From contig JAQWCB010000019.1 in the NCBI GenBank assembly GCA_028707375.1, forward strand, positions 1 through 10,810: a DNA stretch of 10,810 nt, given 5' to 3'. This stretch comes from Bacilli bacterium. GTDB taxonomy: Bacteria > Bacillota_I > Bacilli_A > RFN20 > CAG-288. This document shows, piece by piece, positions 673 to 10,810 of this stretch. Position 1 is the first letter of the stretch, and each line of letters starts with the position of its first letter. The notes beneath the pieces were generated by a model. That model was given only the letters and a program-made list of their open reading frames with translations, ran no database searches and was not told where the DNA came from. The position numbers were made by a program, and so were the translations under genes.

Positions 673-1113
673 TCACAGGATGATTACTGTACCATCTTCC
701 TTAACTTCAATTTGATCACCAGTTTTGATTGTATCCAAAAATTCTTTGCCAAGTTGATCAATACAAACTATATTTGAATTTTCCCATACGCGAGCGAGAA
801 CGATTCCTGAAGCGGCGAGCGAATCGATGTGTTCTGAAAAAAGAAAACACGCGGGATTTATTTTCATTGAGCATATGGTTTGAATCACTAAGCCACCGGT
901 TGTTGAACCGATGGTAATCGGGAGGCAAAGCGCTTTGTCAGTTACATCCTTGTTAAATAAATCAGGATTATTTTGGTCAGAAACGACCAATCTTTTCTTA
1001 TTGGCGAGAGCAGCCTTTTGGAAAGAGGCTAACGTATTGACTCCTTGATGGGAAACAATTGCTTCTCCCTTATATTTTCCTGAAGCGAGAACTCGGCCTT
1101 TAAACTCTTTCAT
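673..1113 (-). CDS. aconitase X small (swivel) subunit, DUF126 family
   Basis: This 146-residue protein is the small swivelling-domain subunit of an aconitase X (AcnX) dehydratase, which covers the active site of the separately encoded large subunit. Visible family signatures are SGKYKGEAIVSHQG at about 11-24, NTLASFQ at 26-32, SDQNNPDL at about 45-52 and CLPITIGSTTGGLVIQT at 63-79; the Ser/Thr/Gly-rich loop is the usual substrate-closing element. Characterised AcnX members are archaeal phosphomevalonate dehydratase and bacterial cis-3-hydroxy-L-proline dehydratase. Their small subunits, as I recall, carry an SF(W/L)GxVD motif where this one has NTLASFQ and DQNNPDL, so the substrate may differ. 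The ATG lies 2 bases after the large-subunit stop, with AAGGAAAA inside the upstream gene as ribosome binding site, so the two are very likely co-translated at similar levels. It ends TGA directly followed by TAA. Confidence 0.85.
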   Translation of the reverse strand: MKEFKGRVLASGKYKGEAIVSHQGVNTLASFQKAALANKKRLVVSDQNNPDLFNKDVTDKALCLPITIGSTTGGLVIQTICSMKINPACFLFSEHIDSLAASGIVLARVWENSNIVCIDQLGKEFLDTIKTGDQIEVKEDGTVIIL

Positions 1114-1115
1114 GG

Positions 1116-2411
1116 CTACATATTTTCCTTTCTTGTTATAGCATCTAGTATTTCATGGTCTTTATAGTATCTTGCGCGAGAGTAGGTGCGCAATTTGTTT
1201 GAGTTTGTCATAATCCGGCGCTTGTGAGTTAACGGATTATTAGTGTACATCAAAGGACAAATGCTCGATAGCGTACAACCGGTACTAAGCAGTTTCTTGT
1301 ACGCTGGAGTCTTGATGAATTTATCTTTGATATCTGGAGCAGTTGTAAGAATGGTTCTTATAGCAACCTTGTGAAGATGATTCTTATTTAAAGCCTCAGA
1401 TATCTTATCTGTCCAATCATTTAATTGCTTAAAGGTAAGATGTGGGCATCCAATGAACACTAGTTGTCCCTTTTTATCTTTATCTTTCCACATAACAGGA
1501 TATGATTGATATATTCTTTCCAGTTCTTTGTCATCAATGATGTATTCTCTTACTTTTTCATCAAGCAATTTGTTACCGAGTTCCTTGGCTTCAGGTGTGA
1601 GATTTTCAATGTGATATAATCCCACAGCCCCATTAGAAGCGGTAGCTGCTCCGAAATCTTTCAAATATGCAATAGTGTCATCATTTAACTCATTGCCAAT
1701 AAATCTATCTAGACCGACGATGTAAGGAACATCCTCCATTACTTTCATTCCGACAGCGGAACCAAGAATTTGAGCCTCGGGCTTTTTAGTGGTTTTTATT
1801 ACGATTTTCCACTTTGCTTTTCTTCCTTCATCGGTCAAGAATCCATAGTAGGGAACAAAACCTGAAATGGCTCCAAATAAATCAAGCATACCAGAATTCC
1901 GATTGCACCTCGCTCCTAAAACAGAGTTGGCAAAGACTACCGCTGAAGATTCAGCCCACGAAAGAATATCGCCTTTTTGAGGGATATTTCCGATTTCTGG
2001 TAGATATGAAGTGCAAGTAAAGGCCTGAGAATTTTTCAAACCAACTTTAGTTAGTTGCTCTTCGTATCTTTTTTGATCACCATAAATAATTTTGGAAAAC
2101 ACCAATTTTTCTAAGATATTGCACTTAACATTTTTATAGTCAATCGGTCGCGGATCGACCGTGAACTTGGCCTCGGTATGAATATCATTCGCAACTAACT
2201 GATCCATTGTCTTAAACAATGGTTTCATAATTGATATTCCAAACGAAGTCACTAAATGTGCTTCTTTATGAGTGACTTCAGCAAGGCGCGGGGCTTCAAA
2301 CATATCGCCGTATCGAACAATGGTTTCGAGAGTTTTGGCGTATACTTCACCCTTGGAGCCATTGAGAATATCAATCTGTTCAGGGGTGAGTTTCATTTTA
2401 GCGTTGTACAT
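1116..2411 (-). CDS. aconitase X large (catalytic) subunit, DUF521 family
   Basis: This 431-residue protein is the catalytic [Fe-S] subunit of an aconitase X family dehydratase, a cytoplasmic hydro-lyase distantly related to aconitase. Family landmarks include the N-terminal LTPEQIDILNG, the FTCTSYLPEIGN block (Cys133), WAESSAVVFANSVLGAR at about 152-168, GSAVGMKVMEDVPYIVG at 217-233, GCPH (Cys322) and STGCT (Cys379) near the end, then TNSNK at 402-406. Cys133, Cys322 and Cys379 fall in the blocks where the family keeps its cluster ligands, so a functional cluster is expected. The start is set by AAGGAG six bases before the ATG. The gene begins 14 bases after the oxidoreductase stop and is followed after 2 bases by the swivel subunit. 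Known AcnX reactions dehydrate mevalonate 5-phosphate or cis-3-hydroxyproline; neither is supported by neighbours here, so the substrate is left open. Confidence 0.88.
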   Translation of the reverse strand: MYNAKMKLTPEQIDILNGSKGEVYAKTLETIVRYGDMFEAPRLAEVTHKEAHLVTSFGISIMKPLFKTMDQLVANDIHTEAKFTVDPRPIDYKNVKCNILEKLVFSKIIYGDQKRYEEQLTKVGLKNSQAFTCTSYLPEIGNIPQKGDILSWAESSAVVFANSVLGARCNRNSGMLDLFGAISGFVPYYGFLTDEGRKAKWKIVIKTTKKPEAQILGSAVGMKVMEDVPYIVGLDRFIGNELNDDTIAYLKDFGAATASNGAVGLYHIENLTPEAKELGNKLLDEKVREYIIDDKELERIYQSYPVMWKDKDKKGQLVFIGCPHLTFKQLNDWTDKISEALNKNHLHKVAIRTILTTAPDIKDKFIKTPAYKKLLSTGCTLSSICPLMYTNNPLTHKRRIMTNSNKLRTYSRARYYKDHEILDAITRKENM

Positions 2412-2425
2412 ATATATCTCCTTTT

Positions 2426-4684
2426 TTATATTGAGCGCGCTTTGCGATAGGCTGCCCGTGTGGCTTGGTGCACCTTAGCTGATTTAAAGGCATCACCGAT
2501 TAAATTGATCTCTGGTGCAGCATTGGCCGCTACTAAATCATAGTAGAGTTTGCAGTTAGGGGAAACTCCCATAGCTAAAACGATGGCATCTGCTTCGAGT
2601 TCTTTTGTTACATATTTATCCTTTGGGTTCTTCGCCAGGGGATTATTCACATTTTCTGGAAGAATAGGATTCCAAGTGAGATAAGGATTGGGAACATTTT
2701 TATCAATGTTTTGGGCGACAACAATTGAGTGTTCTTTCATTTCTAAGCAGCGAGTCATATTGTATAATTTAACATTTTTTTCTTGCAAATAATGAATAAT
2801 ATGACCACGATTGGCGGTACAAACGTGGTTCATAATATATTTATCCATTTCAATGACAAAGGGCTGCTTGTTAAATTCGTAAGCGAGCATATAAGCTGTC
2901 TCAGTACCAACGACTCCGCCGCCGACAACAGCAATCTTGTTATAATTTTTAACCAATTGAGGATCGATTAAGACATCGACAGCGAAAAAGACATTTTTAT
3001 TGTCAATTCCCTTGATGGTGAACTTGTTATTGTGAGCTCCGGAAGAAACGATAATAGAATCAAAGTTTTCGGCCTTAATATTTTCTACCTTCGCCTCAGT
3101 ATTGAGCAGGAGAGTTAATTTCCCAGTCGCTTTGAGTTTGTTGACAACGTGTTCAAGATAGATTAGATAGTTGGCGATGCCATATTTTATCTTGGCCTTG
3201 CTTCCCGCTAATAGTTGGCCTCCAATCACTTTATTCTTTTCAAAGATAGTAACGGTGTGTCCGCGTTTGATTAAAACTTCAGCTGCAGTTATGCCAGCCG
3301 GACCCGCTCCGATAACTGCAACTTTTTTCTTGATGTCAGCCGGAGGAATCTCTTTGGATAATTCCTCTTCAAAGGCGGTTCGCGGGTTAACTGCACACTG
3401 AGGGTGTCCGCCTTCCACAAATTCATTTAGACATCCTTCCTGACATCCGATGCACGGAATGATATCTTCATTTTCTCCACGATAGGCTTTATTAGGCCAT
3501 TCAGGATCGGCCAGCAAGGGACGAGCGAGCATTACCATATCGCATTTATTGTCGCGAAGTGACTTTTCGGCCAAATCGGGATATCCCAATTTTCCAACTC
3601 CTACAATGGGAACTTCTAAGCCGGAATTAGCTTTGATTTTGGCGGTGGCAAAATGTTCCTTAACCATTTTTGCAATCTCTAAAAAACATCCCGCGGGCAT
3701 ACTTGAGGGGGGATGAGGTAGCCACCAGTTGTCATAGCAACCTAAATCAACATCAAAGATATCGACTCCGGCTTCTACTAAATGTTCCATGTATTTCAAA
3801 GTTTGTTCGATGCTTCGACCATTTCTAAATTTTTTCAAGCTCTTAGTTTTATTCATCGTATCTTTGTAGGTTTCATTTAAAGCCAAAGATAGGTCAATGC
3901 GATACATAATGGGATACTTCGCCCCACATCTTTTTCGTATTTCCTTAATTATATCGATTCCGAATTGTTCGTAGTTTGCATATCTTCCCAATTTGCGCCG
4001 ATTGAAAGCGGGGTTAGTTATTTGTTCAAGCAAATATCCCTCATGTCCGTGAAGATAGACTCCATCAATATTGCTGGCTTTAGCATCAGCGGCTGCCTGT
4101 CCAGCATTCTTAACAATCTTTTTTAAAGAGTGATCACTCAATCGTAAACACGGTATTTGTGGAATATACCAACTGGGGTTATTTGAAGCTGAGCGCGGAA
4201 ATTTCTTCTGCGTTATCAAACACTGCGGATTGCCTACGCGCCCTAGTCCTGGAGTTAACTGGATAAAGAATTTTGCTCCTTGAGCATGGCATATCTCGGC
4301 TAAATCACGCCAACCAGCAAAAACTGTTCGCGAACGATCGATTCGAGGAAAATAAGTTAAATCTCCAAGTTCGATAAGCGATTTATCGATACCATAGGAA
4401 ATGGGTATAAGTCCTGAGGTTATTAAACCGACTCCGCCAGCCGCACGCGCTTCAAAATATTTCAGCATTTTAGCATTGGGACGCCCGGTCTCATCGCACA
4501 TATTGATATTTCCCATAGGCCCCATTACTATTCTATTCTTAATAGTGATGCTATTAATTTTTATCGGTGAGAAAAGATGAGTATACGGATACAATTTTTT
4601 GGTCATTTTTGGTATATCAAAACCATGGTTCCACCAATCGCCATACGAGTCGACTAACTCTTGAACCTTTTTGTCAAATTTCAT
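2426..4684 (-). CDS. Old Yellow Enzyme/2,4-dienoyl-CoA reductase-like FMN/FAD/[4Fe-4S] oxidoreductase
   Basis: This 752-residue protein has the three-part layout of FadH-type 2,4-dienoyl-CoA reductases, trimethylamine dehydrogenase and BaiCD/BaiH. An FMN-binding TIM barrel (about 36-405) contains LHGHEGYLLEQ, whose Tyr217 aligns with the proton-donating Tyr of E. coli FadH. A [4Fe-4S] motif follows, CX2CX3CX11C at Cys411, 414, 418 and 430, the same spacing as FadH. Then come an FAD Rossmann fold (GAGPAG, 459-464) and a nested NAD(P)H fold (GGGVVG, 588-593). It should pass electrons from NAD(P)H through FAD and the cluster to FMN, which reduces, or in reverse oxidises, an unsaturated or N-methylated substrate. 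There is an N-terminal extension of about 35 residues and an insertion near 655-690. AGGAGG precedes the ATG. It leads the operon with aconitase X, so it probably acts in the same pathway. A reductase of an enoyl compound and an N-demethylase are both possible. Confidence 0.85.
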   Translation of the reverse strand: MKFDKKVQELVDSYGDWWNHGFDIPKMTKKLYPYTHLFSPIKINSITIKNRIVMGPMGNINMCDETGRPNAKMLKYFEARAAGGVGLITSGLIPISYGIDKSLIELGDLTYFPRIDRSRTVFAGWRDLAEICHAQGAKFFIQLTPGLGRVGNPQCLITQKKFPRSASNNPSWYIPQIPCLRLSDHSLKKIVKNAGQAAADAKASNIDGVYLHGHEGYLLEQITNPAFNRRKLGRYANYEQFGIDIIKEIRKRCGAKYPIMYRIDLSLALNETYKDTMNKTKSLKKFRNGRSIEQTLKYMEHLVEAGVDIFDVDLGCYDNWWLPHPPSSMPAGCFLEIAKMVKEHFATAKIKANSGLEVPIVGVGKLGYPDLAEKSLRDNKCDMVMLARPLLADPEWPNKAYRGENEDIIPCIGCQEGCLNEFVEGGHPQCAVNPRTAFEEELSKEIPPADIKKKVAVIGAGPAGITAAEVLIKRGHTVTIFEKNKVIGGQLLAGSKAKIKYGIANYLIYLEHVVNKLKATGKLTLLLNTEAKVENIKAENFDSIIVSSGAHNNKFTIKGIDNKNVFFAVDVLIDPQLVKNYNKIAVVGGGVVGTETAYMLAYEFNKQPFVIEMDKYIMNHVCTANRGHIIHYLQEKNVKLYNMTRCLEMKEHSIVVAQNIDKNVPNPYLTWNPILPENVNNPLAKNPKDKYVTKELEADAIVLAMGVSPNCKLYYDLVAANAAPEINLIGDAFKSAKVHQATRAAYRKARSI

Positions 4685-5419: not shown

Positions 5420-6169
5420 TTAATCCTTATTTTCATATTTTTGATGCAAAAAATTATTAACTCTTTCATCCTTACACGCGGTAAAAACTTTTTCTGGAGT
5501 ATCAGCCGCCAAGATGTATCCACCATCCATAAATATAAGTTTATTGGCAACAGCGCGAGCAAATTGCATTTCGTGAGTGACAACGGCCATCGTCATTCCT
5601 TGATTTGCCAGTTTTTTCATAACATCTAAAACTGAGGCAGTCATTTCTGGATCAAGAGCGGAGGTGGGTTCATCAAAAAGAAGAACTTCGGGTTTCATAC
5701 ACAAAGCTCTAGCAATAGCTACTCTTTGCTTTTGCCCTCCAGAGATATTTTCAGGCTTATAGTACATGCGATCGCTCATTCCTACTAAACTGAGATTTTG
5801 TTGGGCGATAGTTATGGCTTCTTTTTTCTTCCTTTTTAAAACAGTGCGCTGCGGTAATACGCAATTATCTAAAACTGATTTATTGTTAAATAGATTAAAG
5901 GACTGGAAAACCATTCCGACGTGGGAACGATAATTGTTGAGGTTGAGTTGATTAATATTTTTCCCGTGGAAACTTATTGTCCCCTTAGTCGGCATTTCCA
6001 ATTGATTGATACAGCGAAGTAAGGTCGATTTTCCTGAACCAGATGGTCCGATAATAGCGATGACGTCGCCTTTAAAAATTTCAAAAGAAATATCTTTCAA
6101 AACCTCTGTTGCTCCATCAAAACTTTTGGCGAGATTTTCAACCTTTATTATTGAATTATTAGAGGGCAT
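5420..6169 (-). CDS. amino-acid ABC transporter ATPase (GlnQ/HisP/ArtP family)
   Basis: This 249-residue protein is the nucleotide-binding subunit of a polar-amino-acid importer; as a dimer on the inner face of the membrane it hydrolyses ATP to drive uptake. All motifs are intact: Walker A GPSGSGKST (41-49), Q-loop Gln89 in MVFQSFNLF, signature SGGQKQR (143-149), Walker B VLLFDEP (162-168) and the switch His199 in VTHE. The length is normal for the family. The start is supported by AAGGAG nine bases upstream, inside the permease gene, and the two genes overlap by 11 bases, which implies translational coupling. It is the last gene of the lysine-riboswitch operon. The leader RNA, not this sequence, is what points to lysine as cargo. 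Confidence 0.95.
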   Translation of the reverse strand: MPSNNSIIKVENLAKSFDGATEVLKDISFEIFKGDVIAIIGPSGSGKSTLLRCINQLEMPTKGTISFHGKNINQLNLNNYRSHVGMVFQSFNLFNNKSVLDNCVLPQRTVLKRKKKEAITIAQQNLSLVGMSDRMYYKPENISGGQKQRVAIARALCMKPEVLLFDEPTSALDPEMTASVLDVMKKLANQGMTMAVVTHEMQFARAVANKLIFMDGGYILAADTPEKVFTACKDERVNNFLHQKYENKD

Positions 6170-6950
6170 TGTTACTTTCTCCTTGCGTTAGATTATCGTG
6201 TTTGAGCGTAAAGGGATTGGAAATCTTATTCTTCTTGCTTTTTGACAACCATCTGATCAATAACGATGTACAAAGAGTAAGGACTAGATAGATTAAAGCG
6301 ACGATAATATAACCAGCAATTTGGAAATAATTTCGATTGGTCGCGGCAGAAACCGAAGCGTAAAGCTCGGTCAATCCAATAACATTTAAAACAGATGAAT
6401 CCTTAATATTGACAATAAATTCATTTCCAATCGTGGGCAGAGAATTTTTTAAAGCTTGCGGAATGATAACGTGCCAAATAGTTTGCATATAACTCATTCC
6501 TAAACTTCTTGCTGCTTCCATCTGTCCCTTATCGACTCCATTCATACCTGAACGAACAATTTCGGCCATATAGGCTGAGGTATTGACAGTGATAACGAAT
6601 AGTCCACAAATCATATAACCATTAAAAAAATCGGAGAAGCCGAGTCGAGCCCAACTTATACCTATGGCGGCTCCGCCAAAGAAAACGAGCATGGCTTGAA
6701 CCATCATTGGAATACCACGCCAAATTTCGATATGAACAGTAGCGACAATTTTTCCGATGATTTTTAGAATTCGTTGCAACCGATTGTCGTGTTCATCAAG
6801 ACTGAGGTTCCTTAAAAGTGCAAAAAATATTCCTAAGAATAGCCCAACCAGCGTACCAACTATGGCAAGGACTAATGTTGCCATTAGTCCTTTTATAAAA
6901 TACGAACCATAATTAGAAATCAAATAATTGATTTGTTCAAATAGTGTCAT
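6159..6950 (-). CDS. amino-acid ABC transporter permease (HisM/GlnP family)
   Basis: This 263-residue membrane protein forms the transport channel, probably as a homodimer because the operon has only one permease gene. About five membrane spans are visible, beginning with the GLMATLVLAIVGTLVGLFLG helix (21-40). The coupling (EAA) loop that docks on the ATPase is EAARSLGMSYMQTIWHVIIP (145-164), and the conserved AYMAEIVRSG block (126-135) precedes it. The C-terminus carries about 25 polar residues past the last helix, rather more than usual. Its ATG follows the solute-binding-protein stop by a single base (TAAGATG), and only a weak GGAAC is available as ribosome binding site, so it probably relies on ribosomes finishing the upstream gene. 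Confidence 0.93.
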   Translation of the reverse strand: MTLFEQINYLISNYGSYFIKGLMATLVLAIVGTLVGLFLGIFFALLRNLSLDEHDNRLQRILKIIGKIVATVHIEIWRGIPMMVQAMLVFFGGAAIGISWARLGFSDFFNGYMICGLFVITVNTSAYMAEIVRSGMNGVDKGQMEAARSLGMSYMQTIWHVIIPQALKNSLPTIGNEFIVNIKDSSVLNVIGLTELYASVSAATNRNYFQIAGYIIVALIYLVLTLCTSLLIRWLSKSKKNKISNPFTLKHDNLTQGESNNAL

Positions 6951-6951
6951 C

Positions 6952-7845
6952 TTAATTGGTTGTTCCGTTAACGATAGAAACGGCGACAGGATATTCAGCC
7001 GTCATTGCATCAGCAACTCCAGTTTGCACAGCTGTTGCACACGCTGAAAAGGTTTTGAGAGCCGATTCGTGAATAGCTCCGTATTCCGGAACCAAAACTT
7101 CTTCAATGACATCGTCAGTTACAGTTTGAATCTGCGAAACGACCTTTCGTCCATTTAAATCGTTTAGATCAGTCATTTCAGCTAAATCTGAATCTGCAGA
7201 AACGATGAGTACTAATTCGGAAGTGTAATAAGGATTAGTAAAATCAATCGACAATCGACGCTCAGGAGTATCGGTCATACCGGCAATGATCATATTTATT
7301 TCACCGGAATTCAATGCAGGAATCAAGGCTTCCCACGTATACTTTTTAATAACTAAATTGTAATCGAGATTTTCGGCACACATCTTAGCAATTTGAACAT
7401 CGTATCCATCGGCATATTCACCAGTCTTGTCGTAAAGAGGATAAGTATAGGAAGATGGAGAAGTCTCGGTCCAGTTAAATGGGGCGTAATTTGCTTCCAT
7501 GCCAACGATGAGCGTTTCCTTGGTTTCATCATAGGGGGCCTCAGTTAAAACTGTTTCACTTGAATCGCCTTGAACTTGCTCAAGCGCAGTGGCTCTTTCA
7601 GTTGCTTCAGTCATTAAAGTGTTTCGCGTATCCGCGGAAATATCTGCGAGAACCGAATTGAGACTATCAGTTAATTCCGAATCCTTTTGGACACCGATAG
7701 AAACCGATAAATCTTTTTGTGTCTCTCCGAGAATAGATTGCTCAAAGTGAACAATGGCTAGACTTGAAGAAGAATTGCATGATGAAAGTGGTGTAACCAA
7801 TCCCACCATCAGGGCTGAACATAGAATTAATTTTGCTTTATTCAT
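6952..7845 (-). CDS. circularly permuted amino-acid-binding lipoprotein (SBP_bac_3-like), probable lysine binder
   Basis: This 297-residue protein is the substrate-binding component of the transporter. A lipoprotein signal peptide ends at PLSSC, with Cys23 as the lipid-anchored residue. After a Ser linker, residues 28-88 (from LAIVHFEQSILGE through VSIGVQKDSELTDSL and ADISADTRNTLM) match the segment that normally ends this family: last strand of lobe 2, second hinge crossover, and final helix. A linker at about 89-110 leads into the usual mature N-terminus, TLIVGMEANYAPFNW, then GYDVQIAKM, IIAGMTDTPERR and VADAMTAEYPVAV. The chain stops at IVNGTTN, just where the displaced segment would follow. 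Ligand residues survive: the aromatics in YAPFNW, Arg196/197 for the substrate carboxylate, and Asp279 for the amino group. Nothing appears missing, so this looks like a complete permuted domain rather than a fragment. The lysine assignment comes from the riboswitch. The ribosome binding site AAAGGAG is unusually far from the ATG (13 bases). Confidence 0.88.
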   Translation of the reverse strand: MNKAKLILCSALMVGLVTPLSSCNSSSSLAIVHFEQSILGETQKDLSVSIGVQKDSELTDSLNSVLADISADTRNTLMTEATERATALEQVQGDSSETVLTEAPYDETKETLIVGMEANYAPFNWTETSPSSYTYPLYDKTGEYADGYDVQIAKMCAENLDYNLVIKKYTWEALIPALNSGEINMIIAGMTDTPERRLSIDFTNPYYTSELVLIVSADSDLAEMTDLNDLNGRKVVSQIQTVTDDVIEEVLVPEYGAIHESALKTFSACATAVQTGVADAMTAEYPVAVSIVNGTTN

Positions 7846-7914
7846 ATATAAAAAAAGCTCCTTTCTTAAGATCGCATTCTATCAATGCAACCTTTCCGAA
7901 TGGAACGTTTATAC
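7846..7914 (-). promoter_or_regulatory. expression platform of the lysine riboswitch and start region of the binding-protein gene
   Basis: Between the aptamer and the ATG, the minus-strand RNA has a small TTCC/GGAA hairpin, a GCATT/AATGC hairpin, then AAAGGAG followed by C and seven U residues. No GC-rich terminator stem is visible. AAGAAAG and CTTTTTT flank GAG and could fold into a weak hairpin that buries the ribosome binding site. The AAAGGAG could also pair with CTCCT inside the aptamer. Control at translation start therefore seems more likely than termination, but this is inference. Confidence 0.4.
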
Positions 7915-8080
7915 ATCAATAGCTCCTCTATTCTTTTGGAATAGGAGTATATAAGATATTTTCTTATATCCCAACTCAACATTTTTGGCACAATGCTGGT
8001 TTCGGCTCACTTACCTTTTGAATAACTTCAATTTGCCAGTGAAGTTACTTTACTTTTTAAGCAAGCTCCTCTATCGGATC
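7915..8080 (-). ncRNA. lysine riboswitch (L-box) aptamer
   Basis: Read on the minus strand, the leader begins with CCGATAGAGGAGC and AAAAAGTA, which match the conserved 5' core of the lysine riboswitch (AGAGGNGC ... AGUA). A hairpin GTAACTTCA/TGAAGTTAT follows, then AAAAGGTAAGTGAGCCGAAAC, a close match to the conserved GAAAGG...GCCGAA core. Further hairpins are CAGCATT/AATGTTG, ATATAAGA/TCTTATAT and CTCCTATTC/GAATAGAGGAG. The closing stem P1 pairs CGATAG (8071-8076) with CTATTG (7917-7922). This gives a five-way junction of about 165 bases, the normal size. Known L-boxes bind lysine and switch off lysine biosynthesis or uptake genes, so the downstream transporter is expected to be repressed when lysine is plentiful. 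A covariance-model search was not possible here. Confidence 0.87.
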
Positions 8081-8091
8081 TTATACGTAAG

Positions 8092-10033: not shown

Positions 10034-10810
10034 ATGGAAAAGAAATCCTATATTTATCCAGGGACTGTTTTTACTGCTAAAAATTATGATCCATTTACAA
10101 AACAAATACTAACTCATCCCTTTGTATGTGTATACAATCAGGCATTGGATCAAAATTTAAATGGTGAAACCAACATTCTTGCGTTGCTTATTACTTCTAA
10201 TAGTAAACAACTGAGCAGGCAGATTCCTATACTTAAATCTAAAAATAATTTTCTCGATAAAGATTCATATTGCTATTCAAATAATATCTATATGTTTTTA
10301 AAGGAAGACGTGACAATCATTGGCCAACTGGATTCCGACACATTCTTTGACATTGTACAAAAAAGACAATTAATGTTGCGTGGTGAGAATGATCAATGTG
10401 TTCAATCGTTGATGAATATGAAGGCATATGAATCTAAAATAGCTAAAGAAGAGACAAATTCTCATTGCAACAATCCTTCAAATAAAAAAGTTGTTCAGCA
10501 ATGTTCTAGCGCCAATACCAATAAAAAGAATGATGAGAGAAAAGATGACAATAACAACAATAAATTTTTAAGTGAAAGTCATGACTCTTCAAAAACTAAG
10601 AGTGATGAGAAAAAACACTTGCCGACCAAGAGCAAAAAAAAGAAGGCAAAAAACAAATCGAAAACTAATAGAAAATCTCAAATTAATAAAACAAATATTA
10701 ATCATCAACAGAAGACCCAAAAGATTCAATCGCATCAATTCAAGAAAACGGATGATGGTCCAGTAATAATAGGCGAACCAAATCAACGGAATTTTGTTAG
10801 CAAGTCTCAA
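10034..10810 (+). CDS. MazF/PemK-like N-terminal domain with long basic low-complexity tail (3' end outside window)
   Basis: An open frame of 259 codons runs off the right edge without a stop. Residues 8-115 resemble the MazF/PemK ribonuclease-toxin fold: YPGTVFTAKNYDP, HPFVCVYNQ, then ILALLITSN, IPILKSKNNFLDKDSYC, VTIIGQLDSDTFFDIV. These parallel the family's opening strand, (R)PxVVV strand, ITS loop, LxKDS loop and IGxLs segment. MazF toxins cut RNA, usually using a conserved Arg before that Pro and a Thr in the ITS loop; here the Arg is His28 while Thr53 is present, so activity is doubtful. Residues 140-259 are rich in Lys, Asn and Ser with runs such as KSKKKKAKNKSK, probably disordered and nucleic-acid binding. 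No antitoxin-like gene lies just upstream. The domain call rests on pattern memory; an unrelated SH3-like barrel is possible. Confidence 0.6.
   Translation, partial: MEKKSYIYPGTVFTAKNYDPFTKQILTHPFVCVYNQALDQNLNGETNILALLITSNSKQLSRQIPILKSKNNFLDKDSYCYSNNIYMFLKEDVTIIGQLDSDTFFDIVQKRQLMLRGENDQCVQSLMNMKAYESKIAKEETNSHCNNPSNKKVVQQCSSANTNKKNDERKDDNNNNKFLSESHDSSKTKSDEKKHLPTKSKKKKAKNKSKTNRKSQINKTNINHQQKTQKIQSHQFKKTDDGPVIIGEPNQRNFVSKSQ

Follow-up and report, generated by a model that had tools for sequence, protein, structure and literature searches.

Evidence for a naturally circularly permuted SBP_bac_3 binding protein, and for repeated reordering of its relatives, in one order of Bacilli

Natural circular permutants are already known among solute-binding proteins. 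Tp0684 (TpMglB-2) of Treponema pallidum is a naturally permuted binding protein for which the designation "Type Ic / Cluster Bc" was proposed; the available text of that study reports binding and ligand-induced closing, notes relatives in Gram-positive gut bacteria and raises tethering as a potential explanation of the topology (PMC4990184). A permutation family comprising glycine-betaine binders, molybdate binders and CysB is described in the accessible portion of a structure comparison made with CPSARST (PMC2395249). Importers of the GlnPQ type, as far as the available description goes, carry binding domains in tandem on the permease chain (PMC8025302). The solved binding proteins LAO, HisJ and GlnPQ SBD1 have the ordinary order. 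In the available part of PMC3779223, nothing on the SBP_bac_3 family was found, and among the papers listed from the open-access literature, a scope outside which most subscription papers lie, there was no permuted amino-acid SBP_bac_3 protein. Within that scope, the original prediction that no permuted member of this family had been described holds; however, permutants are known in other clusters, as the two studies of such proteins, in their available text, document (PMC4990184, PMC2395249).

Here, we analyse a stretch of DNA of 10,810 nucleotides (the window), in which a minus-strand ORF at 6952-7845 starts with ATG and encodes 297 residues. We propose, with a probability of about 0.87, that its product is a naturally circularly permuted SBP_bac_3 protein that is predicted to form a two-lobed flytrap and likely feeds lysine to the adjoining permease and ATPase. 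Like TpMglB-2, it is a membrane-tethered permutant of an ABC importer. However, TpMglB-2, as described in the available text, is a type I sugar binder that is permuted within its N lobe and matches its ordinary counterpart poorly in sequence, whereas the window protein belongs to SBP_bac_3, is cut elsewhere and has ordinary-order relatives that are ∼50% identical; the two are set apart by these descriptions. With the glycine-betaine binders it shares a permutation relation among ABC-importer binding proteins, but those proteins, according to the accessible text, belong to another family with <24% identity, whereas the present case is visible in sequence, lies inside one transporter clade and has arisen more than once. 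In contrast to the GlnPQ type as there described, the window protein has one permuted domain and is a separate lipoprotein. What is unusual about the SBP_bac_3 case is its recurrence and its ordinary-order sisters. The features of the locus are as follows, with pieces A, B and C named by their place in the ordinary order A-B-C.

7912..8081, minus strand: lysine riboswitch aptamer upstream of the operon (RF00168, 81.9 bits versus 30)
7858..7863, minus strand: Shine-Dalgarno-like AAGGAG, 12 nt ahead of the ATG (by eye)
6952..7845, minus strand: solute-binding lipoprotein of 297 aa, read as permuted with the order C-A-B (ORF list and homolog piece searches)
7777..7845, minus strand: signal peptide with the lipobox-like LSSC, Cys23 being the predicted lipid anchor (by eye)
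7582..7764, minus strand: piece C, residues 28-88, which in ordinary SBP_bac_3 proteins is the C-terminal segment and here stands at the front (homolog alignments)
7522..7581, minus strand: linker, residues 89-108, between what are ordinarily the C and N termini (homolog alignment)
7303..7521, minus strand: piece A, residues 109-181, the N-terminal segment of the ordinary order (homolog comparison)
6955..7302, minus strand: piece B, residues 182-297, the ordinary middle segment, which stops just short of the usual position of piece C (homolog comparison)
6159..6950, minus strand: ABC permease (BPD_transp_1; Pfam)
5420..6169, minus strand: ABC ATPase (ABC_tran; Pfam)

Three comparisons support the idea that the window protein is, near certainly, a permutation of the SBP_bac_3 order. 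First, residues 107-297 align with the front of the family; PF00497 matches residues 133-232 (profile positions 10-98 of 132) with 85.9 bits at a curated cut-off of 26.4, placing the protein in SBP_bac_3, and the alignment of piece B with LAO runs to LAO residue 177. In LAO, HisJ and GlnPQ SBD1, the part after about residue 177 is the one that corresponds to the front of the window protein. Second, residues 28-88 are identical to residues 222-279 of the ordinary-order homolog P0094 (281 aa) at 34 of 57 positions (60%), and this alignment scores 160 while the best of 200 shuffles scores 55, which rules out a chance likeness to the C terminus of the family. Third, a piece C profile built from permuted proteins only reaches solved binding proteins in their C-terminal part (AncQR 195-220, E 0.003; HisJ 195-220, E 0.076; LAO 196-221, E 0.39); its top match, a repetitive designed protein at E 0.00018, is spurious. 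The C-terminal segment of the family is thus present as residues 28-88, and the pieces follow each other as C-A-B rather than A-B-C. The proposal that the end of an ordinary SBP_bac_3 protein had been placed before the N-terminal part was, therefore, borne out by homolog order, by the P0094 alignment and by the piece C profile. The expected likeness of residues 28-88 to the C-terminal profile of the family was recovered by the alignment and the piece C profile but not by a Pfam search, which gave no match to this segment and limited PF00497 to the range above. Because Pfam annotation misses the moved piece C, permuted proteins can be mistaken for truncated ones.

The C-A-B order recurs in related genomes, as anticipated. 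When the 120 best homologs were searched with the separated pieces, 64 had the order C-A-B, 54 had the ordinary order and two were without piece C. C-A-B is kept down to 47-48% identity, and the border between the orders is sharp, query coverage being 97% for P0064 and 62% for P0065. The ordinary-order comparison range, P0065-P0120, is mixed in that it contains P0068 and P0090, the two proteins without piece C, and its minimum start of 0.00 is to be read accordingly. In the 64 permuted homologs (P0001-P0064), the C and A matches are spaced by a median of 17 residues (range 15-22), the linker of the window protein being ∼20 residues, and 63 of the 64 have a lipobox-like pattern. P0066 (375 aa) reads A-B-C-A-B, ends inside its second domain and is probably a protein of tandem domains that was truncated where its contig stops. 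That neighbouring binding-protein genes were misjoined in assembly or amplification is suggested by the incomplete assembly from which the window contig comes (194 contigs, 65.77% complete). However, P0002-P0004 are near-identical to the window protein and lie on other contigs, and P0005-P0064, i.e., 60 further proteins, as well as the loci L028-L033 in genome contigs, have the same order. We, therefore, reject a chimera, which the original prediction had named as a possible refutation, and consider it vanishingly improbable in view of the many independent homologs and assemblies.

In the window's order, 98 of 279 genomes have a match. Among the matches listed (hits and loci read), at least 12 genomes of the order have a permuted form. 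These include the groups CAB1 (G000, G022, G036, G037, G039, G041 and G163, from the four families f1-f4) and CAB3 (G191 and G192), both with the order C-A-B, and a group with the order B-C-A (G023, G025 and G145); G040, in which a fragment alone is visible, was left unclassed in this count. The named CAB1 records (L028-L033) are metagenome-assembled Bacillales, Erysipelotrichaceae and Bacilli. Outside the order, neither C-A-B nor B-C-A was found among the matches listed for 395 class genomes, a sample in which the known positives G000, G039, G023 and G025 were recovered. In 11 of the 12 genomes with a permuted form, the permuted gene is the sole match at E≤0.001 among the matches listed, with B-C-A genes appearing as two matches inside one ORF; G163 has two weaker matches besides, and because many of these genomes are incomplete metagenome assemblies, sole-copy status is provisional.

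Piece C in its moved position is under purifying selection. For pieces C, A and B, dN/dS is 0.15, 0.11 and 0.20 between L029 and L033 and 0.08, 0.02 and 0.05 between the CAB3 loci L132 and L133; it is 0.21-0.39 for the pairs L029-L031 and L028-L029, giving a span of 0.02-0.39 for all pieces in the four fully measurable locus pairs. Between the window and L002, piece B has 0.23, and C and A are saturated. An alignment of 35 sequences has 49 invariant columns. These values bear on whether the window gene is a decaying, non-functional remnant of a tandem gene pair, as might be supposed from an origin that itself involves tandem duplication and the loss of ends. The dN/dS values far below 1 for all pieces measured, the invariant columns, the retained signal peptide and operon and the sole-match status noted above all argue against it; we reject a pseudogene and regard decay as very improbable. 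Instead, because the C-A-B order is conserved in dozens of relatives, the gene product is very likely a working protein.

The AlphaFold2 model of the window protein is confident (pLDDT 88.2, pTM 0.77; pLDDT 85-96 over residues 31-90), and the closed two-lobe fold that had been expected stands as a prediction. Foldseek and VIA-align matched mainly the collinear part, residues 105-297, the placement of piece C falling outside that range. Based on alignment to solved folds, the linker of ∼20 residues would bridge the old N and C termini, and the new ends would sit in the lobe 2 loop that leads into the last strand of that lobe; the pocket and the surfaces that face the permease would remain as in ordinary proteins. 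With the new ends in this loop, the lipidated N terminus would tether lobe 2 rather than lobe 1, and we infer that the lipid anchor is on lobe 2.

The operon is intact and has the lysine-responsive arrangement that was first claimed for it. The permease ATG starts 1 nt past the stop codon of the binding-protein gene, and the ATPase gene overlaps the permease gene by 11 nt. BPD_transp_1 and ABC_tran genes downstream and the by-eye lipobox LSSC mark the product as an ABC-importer lipoprotein; binding protein and permease are separate genes and not a GlnPQ-type fusion. The RF00168 match upstream identifies a lysine-responsive transport operon. A promoter and terminator scan gave nothing above shuffled controls. 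In a survey of 32 chosen loci, a selection, the riboswitch lies upstream of 6/6 other CAB1, 3/3 B-C-A, 2/2 CAB3 and 6/7 ordinary loci and also ahead of 14/14 further ordinary-order loci. Because of the lysine riboswitch, lysine is the predicted ligand and the presumed substrate of the window transporter.

The original prediction concerned the window protein. The permutation is not one event, as at least three further rearrangements are seen in the same order of Bacilli. One of these concerns CAB3, represented by two loci.

L132:2634-3497, plus strand: CAB3 locus
L133, frame 3387-4292, minus strand: CAB3 locus

Both proteins have the order C-A-B and are 35% identical to the window protein; this order was read in 121 of 121 CAB3 proteins, i.e., the query and the best 120 of 3605 (P0175-P0295). 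They are cut in the same loop as the window lineage, with a tail that is a few residues shorter. With all pieces set in ordinary order, CAB3 falls into a supported group of 17 rows that includes seven ordinary-order proteins (100/98). Forcing CAB1, CAB2 and CAB3, groups that were named after the first tree had been seen, into one clade makes the tree 86.7 log units worse (AU p 0.00045, ten CAB3 rows); the same constraint with one CAB3 row gives an AU p of 0.026. A quick permease tree, used solely for the separate standing of CAB3, places the CAB3 permeases outside the starred group that holds CAB1; in the same tree, the window permease is not united with the other CAB1 permeases in the starred group, and the B-C-A rows and two ordinary rows lie near the CAB1 permeases. 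In the free trees, CAB2 groups with three ordinary-order rows (support 90; 96/88), but CAB1 and CAB2 as one clade have an AU p of 0.489, the constrained tree being 0.39 log units better; we, therefore, do not claim separate origins for these two. A single old permutation for all C-A-B proteins, with the second origin in CAB3 a tree artefact, would fit with cuts in about the same loop and with the unrejected CAB1 and CAB2 clade, but it conflicts with the rejected three-group clade and with the position of the CAB3 permeases, and we judge it quite unlikely. CAB3 is, apparently, an independent permutation event.

A different cut site is found in 562-aa proteins (L106 and L107) that have the order B-C-A and are fused to the permease.

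L106:3899-5584: B-C-A locus
L107:3899-5584: B-C-A locus
L131:2316-3995: third B-C-A locus

The cut falls between the helix ending in WDALLPW and the strand with IIAGMTDT, corresponding, by homology, to the interval from H171-180 to E185-190 in the window model. All 26 proteins P0121-P0146 read B-C-A, P0137 and P0146 being short, and all 26 have a lipobox-like motif; in P0121 the binding domain is on the permease chain, as in the GlnPQ type. The structure model of the B-C-A form is poor overall (pLDDT 55.1). CAB1 and B-C-A as one clade are not rejected (AU p 0.284), and B-C-A may derive from the CAB1 lineage, though an event of its own is still needed for its different cut.

A distantly related transporter from the same order shows a third cut site.

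L164:1347-3815, minus strand: half-whole-half array in an 823-aa frame
L165:1130-3472, minus strand: half-whole-half array in a 781-aa frame
L167:1201-2958, plus strand: permuted single-domain sister in a 586-aa frame

L164 and L165 each consist of a second half, a whole domain, a first half and the permease. Against the middle domain of L164, the leading 135 aa of the protein match residues 107-226 (E 1.6e-12), and the 113 aa that precede the permease match residues 7-91 (E 6.9e-10), so that the outer halves are complementary and do not overlap on the middle domain; the outer halves of L165 behave likewise (E 8.9e-8 and 2.5e-9). PF00497 finds three stretches in L164 and two in L165. Tandem SBP_bac_3 domains occur naturally in importers of the GlnPQ type, as available descriptions show, and L164 and L165 resemble such an array but open with a second half and close with a first one. 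In L167, a second half is followed by a first half and then by the permease. This second half is 45% identical to the middle one of L164 versus 26% for the alternative, and the first half is 49% identical to the last one of L164 versus 37%. L169 (805 aa) and L170 (811 aa) have two second halves each, and L170 alone shows a weak sign of a first half. Relatives of the L164 protein occur in 5 of 279 genomes of the order (E≤1e-40), comprising two clear arrays, one permuted single domain and two unclear cases; none was found in the 395 genomes of the class sample at E≤1e-60, a sample without a positive control for this protein. Trimming of an array may have given the permuted single domain, or a permuted unit may have been duplicated to give an array.

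We suggest that two binding domains would have been brought together by tandem duplication or fusion, and that C-A-B would then have arisen when the first copy lost its front and the second its tail; a like process would account for the remaining reordered forms in this bacterial order. Duplication and trimming is the likely origin of the window gene, for which the half-whole-half arrays provide circumstantial support from a distant transporter. The pieces could alternatively have come from two different paralogs rather than from duplication of one gene, and the concatenated tree of pieces C and A+B cannot separate the two origins. However, the ordinary proteins nearest to piece C, P0094 among them, are the same lysine-type ones that are nearest to A+B, and tandem domains of one family do occur in the order, as seen in the half-whole-half array; we consider a fusion of paralogs unlikely, if a little less so than a single old permutation.

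Altogether, the data support at least four events in one order, three of which are required by the cut sites and the distant transporter, while the AU test supports a convergent fourth. We lean, with some reserve, toward a broader reading for this order of uncultured gut Bacilli: binding proteins would have been recut at least four times at three sites, twice independently in the same lobe-2 loop behind a lysine riboswitch, by way of tandem arrays in which complementary outer halves flank a whole domain, and switching of the anchor would be a recurrent retuning of the importer. Related bacteria have one lysine-type transporter in ordinary, tail-first and differently cut form; these versions are ∼50% identical in their shared part and have the same riboswitch. 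They, thus, form natural matched pairs for asking which lobe is tethered and how lobe closing couples to the permease, and the reordered versions would show how binding proteins can change their membrane-tied end. In the arrays and their permuted single-domain sister, stages in the rise of a circular permutation may still be visible today.

Elsewhere in the window, the minus strand at 673-4684 carries closely spaced genes for the swivel and main subunits of aconitase X (PF01989, PF04412), adjoined on the same strand by a 752-aa FMN/FAD oxidoreductase (PF00724, PF07992). On the plus strand, an ORF at 10034-10810 is open-ended; it codes for at least 259 aa, and its tail is rich in lysine and asparagine.
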